Below, in pieces: positions 4,153-18,881 of a stretch of 43,013 bases of DNA. The notes below the pieces were generated by a model. It saw only the letters and a list, made by a program, of their open reading frames with translations, was not told where the DNA came from and searched no databases. The position numbers were made by a program, and so were the translations under genes. The DNA comes from Chitinophagales bacterium. GTDB lineage: Bacteria > Bacteroidota > Bacteroidia > Chitinophagales > JADIYW01. The stretch covers positions 1-43,013 of the forward strand of contig JAGNZZ010000009.1 in the NCBI GenBank assembly GCA_017984135.1, read 5' to 3'. Every line of letters begins with the position of its first letter. The stretch's first letter is position 1.

Positions 4153-6387
4153 ATGGAAATAAACGTAGAAGCAGAAAAGGAAGCCATCATTAAAGATTAT
4201 CGTCAACTGTTGCGATTAGCACGTCCGCGCATGAAAAAAGGCGACGATAAACGCATTCGCCATGCATTTGAATTGGCAGTAGATGCGCATAAGCACATGC
4301 GGCGTAAAAGTGGCGAACCGTATATTCATCATCCAATTGCAGTGGCAAAAATTGTTTCCGGCGATATGGGATTGGGTTCCACTTCCATCATTTGTGCTTT
4401 GCTGCACGATACGGTGGAAGATACCGATTTAACGATAGATGACATTAAAAAAGAATTTGGAAATACCTCCGCCAAAATTATTGATGGACTAACCAAAATC
4501 AGTAAAATTTCTCATCAAACAGAATCGGTACAAGCAGAAAATTATCGCAAGATTTTATTAACCCTAAGTGATGATATTCGTGTTATTTTAATAAAAATTG
4601 CCGACAGGTTGCACAATATGCGCACCTTAGATGGACAAAGCAGGAAAAACCAACTTAAAATTGCTTCGGAAACTATTTATTTATATGCACCTTTAGCGCA
4701 TCGTTTAGGCTTATATTCCATTAAAGGAGAATTGGAAGATTTGGCAATGAAATATACCGAAACGGAGAAATATAAAGAAATTGCCAAATCCTTAGAATCC
4801 ACTAAAAAAGAACGTACCAAATACATCAACGATTTTGTACGGCCATTACAAGAAGAGATGGACAAATCAGGATTGAATGCCAATGTTTTTGGGCGACCTA
4901 AATCCATCTCATCCATTTGGAATAAAATGCGTAAAAAAGAAGTTACGTTTGAAGATGTTTATGATAAATTTGCCATTCGTGTTATTATAGATTCTACCGC
5001 AGAAAAAGAAAAAGAAGATTGTTGGCGTGCATATTCTATCGTTACGGATAAATATTCGCCACAACCCAATAGAATGCGCGATTGGATTTCGCATCCAAAA
5101 GGCAATGGGTATGAATCATTGCATACGACCGTGATGGGACCAGGCGGACAATGGGTGGAAGTGCAAATAAGAACGAAACGCATGGATGAAGTGGCTGAAA
5201 AAGGCTTAGCCGCGCATTATAAATACAAAGAAAATAAATTTAAACCATCGAACAATACGGAAGAAGTGATTGAAAGTTGGTTGATGCAAGTGCGTGAATA
5301 TTTAAAAAATCCGGACATCAATCCTATAGAATTTATAAATGATTTTAAACTTCAACTCTACCAAAAAGAAATTTATATTTTTACGCCAAAAGGTGAATTG
5401 AAAATATTGCCGGCAAGTTCTACGGCATTAGATTTTGCTTATACGGTGCACACCAATGTAGGCGATACTTGTATTGGCGCCAAAGTAAACAATAAATTAG
5501 TACCCATCAGCCATGAATTAAAAAATGGCGACCAAGTAGAAATCATTACATCGCGCAAGCAAAAACCAAGTGAAGACTGGTTGAATATTGTAACGACTTC
5601 TCGTGCAAAATCAAAAATCAAAAATTCTTTGCGCGAAGAAAAAAGAAAAATTGCCGACGATGGGAAAGAAATTTTAGAACGAAAATTAAGCCAGTTAAAA
5701 GCAAATTATAACAACGAAAATATTACGCTGTTAGCTTCGTTTTACAAAATGCCAAGTCCGATGGATTTATTGTATGGCATTGCAAAAGGCACCATCAATT
5801 TATTAGAGTTAAAGAAATTTAAAAATGTAGGTGGTAATTTAGAAATTATAAAAGCAGAAAAAATTGGCAAGCCAAAAGATGAAGAAGTTTATTACCACAC
5901 GAATAATGATGATAATAATGGTGAAATACCAAAGAATGCAGAATTGGTTATTTTCGATGAATCATCGAAATTTCCGTATGAGTTTGCAAAATGTTGTGGT
6001 GCCATTCCGGGTGATGATGTGATTGGTTTTATATCAATAAATGGTGTGATAAAAATCCACAGAACCGGTTGCCCGAATGTTATCAATCTGGCATCAAAAT
6101 ATGGTTATCGCATAATAAAAACACGTTGGACGGCAAAAACCACTCCTGCATTTTTAACTACTGTAAAACTTACCGGTTTAGATGATATTGGTATAATTAA
6201 TAAATTGACTACTATCATTTCAGGAGAAATGAAATTAAATATGCAGTCTATTTCTCTAGAAACCAATGAAGGCATTTTTGAAGGCATCATAAAAGTTTTT
6301 GTAAAAGACAACGACCAAGTGAATAAACTACTTCAAAAACTAAAAGCCATAGATGGTGTTAATTCGGTCATTCGAGAAGAGATTTAG
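4153..6387 (+). CDS. rel: Bifunctional (p)ppGpp synthetase/hydrolase, Rel/SpoT family
   Basis: This enzyme makes and degrades the stringent-response alarmone (p)ppGpp. The 744 residues hold all the domains of a long RSH protein. The hydrolase HD domain (about 35-190) has YIHHPIAVA and HDTVEDT (HD at 85-86). The synthetase domain (about 235-355) has RPKSISSIW and GYESLHTTVMGP. The TGS domain is ~403-465. A conserved CC motif with IHRTGCPN near 610-650 is the zinc-finger/helical region, and an ACT domain fills the last ~75 residues. Both HD residues are present, so hydrolase activity is expected; a synthetase role is supported by the intact GYxSLHT segment. It stands alone between a terminator and the repeat array. 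Confidence 0.96.
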   Translation: MEINVEAEKEAIIKDYRQLLRLARPRMKKGDDKRIRHAFELAVDAHKHMRRKSGEPYIHHPIAVAKIVSGDMGLGSTSIICALLHDTVEDTDLTIDDIKKEFGNTSAKIIDGLTKISKISHQTESVQAENYRKILLTLSDDIRVILIKIADRLHNMRTLDGQSRKNQLKIASETIYLYAPLAHRLGLYSIKGELEDLAMKYTETEKYKEIAKSLESTKKERTKYINDFVRPLQEEMDKSGLNANVFGRPKSISSIWNKMRKKEVTFEDVYDKFAIRVIIDSTAEKEKEDCWRAYSIVTDKYSPQPNRMRDWISHPKGNGYESLHTTVMGPGGQWVEVQIRTKRMDEVAEKGLAAHYKYKENKFKPSNNTEEVIESWLMQVREYLKNPDINPIEFINDFKLQLYQKEIYIFTPKGELKILPASSTALDFAYTVHTNVGDTCIGAKVNNKLVPISHELKNGDQVEIITSRKQKPSEDWLNIVTTSRAKSKIKNSLREEKRKIADDGKEILERKLSQLKANYNNENITLLASFYKMPSPMDLLYGIAKGTINLLELKKFKNVGGNLEIIKAEKIGKPKDEEVYYHTNNDDNNGEIPKNAELVIFDESSKFPYEFAKCCGAIPGDDVIGFISINGVIKIHRTGCPNVINLASKYGYRIIKTRWTAKTTPAFLTTVKLTGLDDIGIINKLTTIISGEMKLNMQSISLETNEGIFEGIIKVFVKDNDQVNKLLQKLKAIDGVNSVIREEI

Positions 6388-6506
6388 ATTTATGATTTCA
6401 GATTTGAGTATTGGGAATGAACGAAACAAAAAGGATGATATTATTGAATAATCAATTGCCTGCTACTTGCGCTCGCAAAGTGTTATCACCTTGCGACTGC
6501 TCGTAG

Positions 6507-6529: not shown

Positions 6530-6539
6530 GGTGGAGGAG

Positions 6540-7114
6540 TTTTTTATTAAACAAGATAAAAACTTGATTTATTAATCGTCACAAGTTTCCCACGCTTTCG
6601 CTATACTACAAACTTGCGACAGCTTTGGAGGAGTTTTTTATTAAACAAGTTAAAAACTTGATTTATTAATCGTCACAAGTTTCCCACGCTTTCGCTATAC
6701 TACAAACTTGCGACAGCTTTGGGACAGCTTTGGGTTTTTTATTAAACAAGTTAAAAACTTGATTTATTAATCGTCACAAGTTTCCCACGCTTTCGCTATA
6801 CTACAAACTTGCGACAGCTTTGGAGGAGTTTTTTATTAAACAAGTTAAAAACTTGATTTATTAATCGTCACAAGTTTCCCACGCTTTCGCTATACTACAA
6901 ACTTGCGACAGCTTTGGGACAGCTTTGGGTTTTTTATTAAACAAGTTAAAAACTTGATTTATTAATCGTCACAAGTTTCCCACGCTTTCGCTATACTACA
7001 AACTTGCGACAGCTTTGGAGGAGTTTTTTATTAAACAAGTTAAAAACTTGATTTATTAATCGTCACAAGTTTCCCACGCTATCGCTATACTACAAACTTG
7101 CGACAGCTTTGGGT
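6540..7114. repeat. Higher-order tandem repeat array (six units, three 195-bp dimers)
   Basis: This fills most of the 811-bp gap between rel (6387) and fur (7199), which holds no gene. Units begin at the T-run before ATTAAACAAG at 6540, 6634, 6735, 6829, 6930 and 7024. The spacing is 94, 101, 94, 101 and 94 bp, and the last unit is ~91 bp. The 94-bp type ends in GGAGGAG; the 101-bp type ends in GGGACAGCTTTGGG. Two substitutions are visible, at 6556 (first unit) and 7081 (last unit); inner units look identical. Each unit has two hairpins, for example CAAGTT/AACTTG (6646-6660) and an 11-bp arm GTCACAAGTTT/AAACTTGCGAC (6672-6682, 6704-6714, one mismatch). Stops occur in every frame. Before the array (6388-6539) I see only hairpin-rich AT sequence; after it (7115-7198) lies the fur promoter. 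Confidence 0.95.
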
Positions 7115-7186: not shown

Positions 7187-7194
7187 TAATTTTG
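7187..7194 (+). promoter_or_regulatory. -7 box TAATTTTG before fur
   Basis: TAATTTTG fits TAnnTTTG and ends 4 nt before the first ATG (7199) and 10 nt before the second (7205). Transcription would start at or next to the start codon, so the second ATG may be the real one. A TTTT at 7161-7164 could serve as a weak -33. Confidence 0.5.
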
Positions 7195-7198
7195 CCTA

Positions 7199-7663
7199 AT
7201 GGCAATGGATACCAAACTTTTCGCAGAAGTAAAACATATATTTTCTACTTATTTAGAAAATAATAAACAGCGCAAAACACCTGAGCGTTTTTCTATCTTG
7301 GAAGAGATATATAACCGAGAAGATCACTTTGATGCGGAAGAGTTGTACCTGCAAATGAAAAACAATGATTTCAATGTAAGTCGAGCTACTGTATATAATA
7401 CATTAGATGTTTTGGTACAATGTGAATTAGTAACCAAACATCAGTTTGGACAAAACCATGCCATGTACGAAAAATCGTATGGCAACAGAAATCACGATCA
7501 TTTAATTTGTATAGATTGTGGTCACGTTTTTGAGTTTTGCGACCCACGTTTACAACAAGTAAAATCCAGTGCCGGCGAATTGTTTCACCAATCCATAAAA
7601 TCGCATTCCCTCACTTTATACGGCAACTGCCATCATAAAAACTGCGAAAATAAAAAATCTTAA
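7199..7663 (+). CDS. fur: Fur-family metal-dependent transcriptional regulator
   Basis: Fur-family proteins are small dimeric repressors that sense iron, peroxide or zinc. The 154 residues show an N-terminal winged helix (about 20-85, with [13 protein letters not shown] as recognition region). A C-terminal metal-binding domain follows, with [15 protein letters not shown], where a CxxC and His residues bind metal. The C-terminal cysteine pair is spaced as NCHHKNC (C-x4-C) instead of the common CxxC. Two in-frame ATGs lie at 7199 and 7205, and the promoter position slightly favours the second. Whether it acts as Fur, PerR or Zur cannot be told from the sequence. Confidence 0.9.
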
Positions 7664-18110: not shown

Positions 18111-18881
18111 TTACTTAGTTGCTTTCTTTTTAGCCGGTGCTTTCTTAGCAGGAACAGCTGCTTTTTTTGCTGGTACCGCTGCTTTTTTTACTGGAGCAGC
18201 AGCTTTTTTAGGAGCTGGTGTTGTTGTTTTTTTAGGAGCTGGAGTTACTACATTTTTTACCGGAGCTTTCGCCACTTTCATTTTCACTTCTTTAGTAGCT
18301 TTTGCTGTAGATGCTTTCACTTCTTTGCTTACTTTTTCAACTTTTGTTTCCACTTGTTTTTTTACTTTGTTGATGTTTTTCTCCGCTTCTTTCGTCGCTT
18401 TTGCTACATTTTTTTGTAACCCTGCAGTTGCTTTTTTTACATCTTTTTCCACTTTATTAGCGAATTTATCTGCTTTTTTTTGCAAGTCAGCCGTTGCTTT
18501 TTTTACATCATCTTCTAATTCATCTGTAAACTTATCCGCTTTTTTAGAGAAATTAGCGGCAGCTTTTTTAGCTCTTTTTTCTCCACTTTGAATTTGTTCA
18601 TTTACAAATTGAAATGCTTTTTCTATTCTTACTTTTGCATCATCTACAACATTTTCAGCTTCTGCTAAAATATTAGCGCGAACTTTGTCCACATCTACTA
18701 TTTGTGAAATTCTGCCTTTTATTTTTTCACCATATTCTTGCAAATTTTCTTTCTGTCCATCTACTTGAACTTTTACATCTTCTTTAAGATTTAAAAAGTT
18801 ACTTCTAACTTCTTCAATTTTTGCATTAAAATCGCTGAATAATTTATCAAATGCTTCTTGAAATTTTTTAGTTGTGTCCAT
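18111..18881 (-). CDS. Amphipathic-repeat protein with histone-H1-like Lys/Ala/Pro tail
   Basis: The 256-residue product has no membrane segment or signal peptide. Residues ~1-105 are a charged helical region. Residues ~110-165 carry a 22-residue repeat (two 11-mers), seen as KKADKFTDELEDDVKKATADL then KKADKFANKVEKDVKKATAGL, the pattern of LEA-3 or apolipoprotein-like amphipathic helices. Residues ~195-256 are a disordered KKAAAPxKK tail like histone H1 or the bacterial Hc1/AlgP tails, able to bind nucleic acid. It could coat DNA, polyphosphate or granules (phasin-like) or act in desiccation. Function is unknown. Confidence 0.75.
   Translation of the reverse strand: MDTTKKFQEAFDKLFSDFNAKIEEVRSNFLNLKEDVKVQVDGQKENLQEYGEKIKGRISQIVDVDKVRANILAEAENVVDDAKVRIEKAFQFVNEQIQSGEKRAKKAAANFSKKADKFTDELEDDVKKATADLQKKADKFANKVEKDVKKATAGLQKNVAKATKEAEKNINKVKKQVETKVEKVSKEVKASTAKATKEVKMKVAKAPVKNVVTPAPKKTTTPAPKKAAAPVKKAAVPAKKAAVPAKKAPAKKKATK

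Follow-up and report, generated by a model that had tools for sequence, protein, structure and literature searches.

The six tandem units between rel and fur in the window (the whole stretch of 43,013 nucleotides that we analyzed) are a variant of the REP-like elements linked to RAYT transposases, ordinary in kind and informative in detail. Each unit is very probably a miniature mobile hairpin pair of the REP/BIME type that belongs to RAYT (HUH/Y1) transposases and that was inserted here and then amplified in tandem. Taken as a whole, the array most plausibly represents an orphan cluster of REP-like elements that was amplified in situ. REP elements, together with their RAYTs, have long been puzzling features of bacterial genomes. 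Among the ideas offered by an earlier sequence-only reading of this DNA, that of a self-amplifying element came near the mark, in that the unit appears to be a mobile hairpin element tied to RAYTs.

Layout of the array and of the rel-fur gap

The array consists of six head-to-tail units of 94/101/94/101/94 bp, with a sixth that runs to the array's end, and thus of three 195-bp dimers (Table 1). TRF and a repeat finder, which place 6.0 copies of a 94-bp repeat or 2.9 copies of a 195-bp repeat at positions 6532-7113, confirm this arrangement as the sequence-only reading had described it. The alternation in length arises from the linkers, as cores of 89 bp are separated in turn by 5 bp (AGGAG) and by 12 bp (GACAGCTTTGGG). 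The 195-bp periodicity is exact across 329 bp, and the six cores differ only at 6556 (T>A, unit 1) and 7081 (T>A, unit 6), so that substitutions are indeed limited to the outermost units. This pattern fits the unequal crossing-over that had been proposed. At the position equivalent to 7081, units 1-5 have T and unit 6 has A, as in a related array downstream of rpoB (see below). The A is likely the ancestral state, and its presence in unit 6 fits an escape of edge units from homogenization.

Table 1. Features of the array and its surroundings (window positions)
Feature	Position	Strand	Remarks
rel (RelA/SpoT: HD_4, RelA_SpoT, TGS, ACT)	4153-6387	+	Pfam; upstream neighbor of array
Single hairpin TCGCAAAGTGTTATCACCTTGCGA	6473-6496	.	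REP-like repeat distinct from array unit
GTAG + hairpin TTTGTTGGTTACAAACCAACAAA	6503-6529	+	Classical GTAG-footed REP
Unit 1 core, 89 bp	6540-6628	+	Then linker AGGAG 6629-6633; T>A at 6556; covariance model R1, 98.8 bits
Unit 2 core	6634-6722	+	Then 12-bp linker GACAGCTTTGGG 6723-6734; R1
Hairpin 1 of unit 2	6646-6660	+	CAAGTT-AAA-AACTTG; 6 bp, 3-nt loop; in every unit, 12 bp into core
Hairpin 2 of unit 2	6672-6714	+	GTC[A]CAAGTTT ... AAACTTG[C]GAC; conserved A.C mismatch; in every unit, 38 bp into core
Unit 3 core	6735-6823	+	Then 5-bp linker; R1
Unit 4 core	6829-6917	+	Then 12-bp linker; R1
Unit 5 core	6930-7018	+	Then 5-bp linker; R1
Unit 6 core	7024-7112	+	A at 7081, common to rpoB array; R1
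fur (FUR family)	7199-7663	+	Pfam; downstream neighbor of array

How far this layout can be trusted depends on the assembly. At least 18 pairs of contig ends have exactly 127 bp in common, which points to a short-read assembly with k=127. Since one 127-mer covers two successive linkers, both the 94/101 alternation and the edge variants can be relied upon. The exact repeat of 329 bp is longer than k, and the number of dimers (three) is thus an unreliable assembler estimate.

Every unit contains two inverted repeats, of which the second has a gap of 19. The array folds better than dinucleotide shuffles (as RNA, z=-4.9), as does a single unit folded as single-stranded DNA (z=-3.5). The two inverted repeats per unit noted earlier are real, but the regular string of about 12 hairpins predicted from them is not obtained: in the minimum-energy fold of the whole array there is no clean row of 12 identical hairpins, because the arms of adjacent units also pair. 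Stops fill all six frames of the array, as had been observed. An Rfam search of the window at the gathering score returned only a tRNA and left the array without a match. We looked for an intrinsic-terminator-like site in the array and found none, and each unit has a weak promoter-like match. Elsewhere in the window, a minus-strand ORF at 18111-18881 holds several tandem repeats (18138-18545) of low complexity; its product is perhaps a Lys/Ala-rich histone-like protein.

Pfam confirms the identity of the two flanking genes. Directly upstream of the array stand two other REP-type hairpins (Table 1): relatives of the first adjoin RAYT genes in the congener G007 and in the array's own genome, and relatives of the second flank a RAYT in G001 (L062). 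Between the array and fur, a possible -7 element (TAATTTTG) stands at 7187. The rel-fur gap measures 811 bp here. In the congeners G001 and G003 it spans about 54 and 82 bp, respectively, and is free of the element; the comparison rests on G001, G003, and G007, as rel lies beyond reach of fur in the other congeners. The gap of G007 holds a 1.7-kb insert (L290 100-1790) in which there is a lipoprotein-like ORF and, on visual inspection, a double hairpin like those on contig C37 (see below). A search for a second assembly carrying the rel-fur array found none.

A family of double hairpins beside RAYT genes

To describe the element beyond the window, we built a covariance model (R1) from six copies out of four genomes. 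Further copies, which the sequence-only reading had suggested looking for, were found in at least 14 of 61 genomes of the order, and in the own genome at the starts of three contigs (C23, C43, and C55). The number of matches per genome reached eight in G013, five in G010, and three in G051; outside the genus, many matches are weak when taken singly (E 0.001-0.05 per genome). The family consensus comprises a T-rich lead, hairpin 1 (6 bp, 3-nt loop), a spacer close to TTTATTTAT, hairpin 2 (3 bp, an A.C mismatch, then 6-7 bp), and CAGC.

Across 52 distinct copies, 90% of the cells are paired and changes on both sides occur in 15 of the 16 pairs. Compensatory cells number 150; shuffles give 38, and slid partners no more than 23. 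This alignment had been fitted to the structure of the model, and the initial, unfitted alignment of six sequences agrees with it. The outer stem of hairpin 2 varies (GTC/GAC, GGC/GCC, CTC/GAG, AGC/GCT) while the A.C mismatch persists, being retained in 43 of the 52 copies. Nearly all copies (33 out of 34) lie outside ORFs of at least 150 aa, where ORF coverage is 60%. The element is thus palindromic, extragenic, and multi-copy. A conserved GTRG ahead of either hairpin, as in canonical REPs, is absent from the aligned copies.

Among the 33 loci found by R1 alone, there are four (L251, L252, L258, and L261) at which a RAYT gene, or a fragment of one, lies no more than about 100 bp away from the element, where 0.08 would be expected (P about 1e-6; 2e-5 if the density is doubled). 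At L258, a RAYT 3' fragment ends in a stop codon right at which the element begins. A search that started from the RAYT genes showed that L050, L051, and L057 are flanked by the element too. In the relatives, RAYT genes usually have copies in inverted orientation on either side: copies downstream are sense and copies upstream antisense in 11 of 13 instances, so that hairpin 1 faces the RAYT gene. The two exceptions each belong to an inverted pair, of which they form the second member. The three RAYT proteins that were run against NCBIfam all pass the RAYT cut-off (NF047646) and fall far below the IS200 cut-off.

The double hairpin also appears to follow one group of RAYTs. It flanks 6 of the 11 RAYTs that carry an ESR[RK].W insertion and none of the 7 that lack it; GTRG hairpins flank 3 of these 7 and none of the 11, and no RAYT flanked by the double hairpin has a GTRG hairpin beside it. 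For the remaining 5 of the 11 insertion-bearing RAYTs, no clear copy was found with R1. As the one-sided exact probability of the split, calculated by hand, is 0.025, we regard it as suggestive and not firm.

We considered whether the array could instead be a selected regulatory RNA or transcription barrier, whose transcribed hairpins insulate or stabilize the rel and fur messages. Its position between two regulators, its better-than-shuffled fold, and the promoter-like match in each unit would suit such a role, and the sequence-only reading had proposed both a barrier between two global regulators and a protein- or RNA-binding platform. We nevertheless consider regulation quite unlikely, because the same element occurs at many unrelated intergenic sites, congeners do with a gap of 54-82 bp that lacks it, no terminator-like site is present, Rfam has no match for the array, and the RAYT linkage accounts for the structure. 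Neither the barrier nor the platform has specific support. We found no evidence that the element serves rel or fur, and any effect on transcription is probably incidental. A plain minisatellite, i.e. a chance inverted-repeat sequence multiplied by replication slippage without any mobile-element ancestry, would match the tandem form, the identical inner units, and the short linkers, but it is highly improbable: the covariation over 52 copies in many genera, together with the RAYT neighborhood, contradicts it and excludes slippage of a chance sequence as the source. Integron attC sites and CRISPR were set aside, as the RAYT link already accounts for the structure.

Tandem arrays elsewhere in the genome

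The own genome carries ~100-bp tandem units with a REP-type hairpin at several sites; counts within it rest on genome searches and on contig ends. Contig C23 begins, downstream of rpoB, inside a unit that is 88% identical to the window unit, C43 opens with a more diverged unit 340 bp ahead of rpoC, and C55 opens with the final 26 bp of a unit. A matching rpoB locus with 3.3 mutually identical units of 96 bp is present in a public MAG contig named Flavobacterium (L072, JAGNSF010000155.1). Beside the array, this contig, binned as Flavobacterium sp., matches the Chitinophagales genome over the stretch compared, and judging from sequence it is probably misbinned. Comparison with relatives gave shorter gaps without the element at rel-fur (G001 and G003) and an array of 3.3 units at rpoB. 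Within each locus the units are uniform, but they differ from one locus to another, a sign of local amplification. That the assembler merely multiplied a single unit is exceedingly improbable: a k=127 assembly does not reliably count an exact repeat of 329 bp, but with two linkers and two edge variants there must be more than one unit, and the independent MAG of the same lineage also has tandem copies at its rpoB locus.

The starts of C23 (rpoB) and C43 (rpoC) might be the two sides of a single array inside rpoBC, but in the closest relative (G004; L286, G004:C63) rpoC has no rpoB directly upstream, and the two genes may for this reason be separated in this lineage. Three further loci (L071, L073, and L074) look like chance matches in sequence that is unrelated and richer in GC.

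Other arrays in the genome contain parts of RAYT genes. At the start of C37 (L269, G000:C37:1-1200), RAYT 3'-end fragments alternate with double hairpins, seven copies in 1.2 kb, whose stems differ in sequence from those of the window unit (GCGGTC..GACCGC, GACACGAGTC..GACTCGCGTC). The end of C34 (L268 1220-1500) has ~100-bp tandem repeats with a RAYT 5' end and a hairpin (GGTGATAACACC; GGCAGGTGTTATCACCTGCC). Each of the four arrays (rel-fur gap, downstream of rpoB, RAYT 3' ends on C37, RAYT 5' end on C34) has its own hairpin. The sole intact RAYT of the own genome (C68:48672-49217) is flanked by GGTTCGTG..CACGAACC hairpins, and its 3' end and hairpin are partially duplicated downstream (L035 1363-2620; G000:C68:48.6-49.9 kb). 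A RAYT 3' end and hairpin are likewise duplicated downstream in G005 (L061). We had expected the intact RAYT of the own genome to be the array's partner, but it carries GGTTCGTG hairpins instead. No RAYT adjoined by the window's exact stem sequence was found in the own genome, and the gapped assembly yielded no intact cognate RAYT, only the intact gene with other hairpins and fragments; the element is thus probably an orphan today.

We propose that a RAYT would have recognized the single-stranded form of the hairpins, probably in the template of the lagging strand, and inserted one copy into the rel-fur gap, beside the two other REP-type hairpins. Duplication would then have turned this copy into a dimer, which would have grown by slippage or unequal exchange, leaving identical inner units and edge units out of step. 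Alternatively, the tandem amplification might itself be an act of the RAYT, in which a nick made at the hairpin would prime a further round of copying of the element and adjoining sequence. We hold this to be a doubtful but possible route; if true, it would explain the ~100-bp tandem units at rel-fur, downstream of rpoB, on C37, and on C34.

Relation to known REP systems

As far as the available text of PMC6006769 describes them, the REPs of RAYT subclass 2.6 (Bertels group 5) in Bacteroidetes have atypical secondary structures without GT[AG]G. Our element fits these published atypical REPs: it comes from the same phylum, lacks the GT[AG]G foot, and has copies beside RAYTs (L252 and L261, both with the YIHQNP motif, and L050, L051, L057, and L251) and elsewhere in the genome (G013, G010, and G051). 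The RAYTs concerned share with that account the motifs NH[LIV]H, WQ, and YIH[QN]NP (G008 and G042) and an insertion before WQ; their assignment to subclass 2.6 is by these motifs and the insertion rather than by the profile of the authors. What differs from the subclass as described there is a double hairpin in which an A.C mismatch is conserved, and the occurrence of six tandem solo copies without a RAYT.

Tandem clusters of nearly identical REPINs including their flanks, up to ~700 bp, occur in Pseudomonas fluorescens SBW25 (PMC3116915). These are likewise short RAYT-linked elements in tandem arrays of near-identical units with flanks, but a REPIN is two inverted REPs that form one long hairpin, whereas the unit here has two separate hairpins in the same orientation, related but not inverted duplicates. 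In E. coli, TnpAREP recognition requires an unpaired position in the REP stem (PMC8266576). The REP/BIME elements are also palindromes with an unpaired stem position and occur as pairs in tandem; in contrast to them, the array unit has no GTAG tetranucleotide, an unrelated stem sequence, and a partner RAYT that is putative. The ends of IS200/IS605 have comparable subterminal hairpins, recognized there by Y1 transposases. Unlike in that family, we see no IS unit with both ends and a transposase, and the three proteins score far below the IS200 cut-off and above the one for RAYTs.

The solo array is a natural example of REP-like amplification without an adjacent transposase. In suggestive form, the sequence comparisons also indicate which hairpin accompanies one poorly described group of RAYTs. 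A Bacteroidetes branch previously known, in the available account (PMC6006769), by its "atypical secondary structures" is here resolved as a double hairpin. Together, the double hairpin, its conserved mismatch, the oriented flanking of RAYT genes, and the match to one subgroup define a substrate that is testable in vitro.
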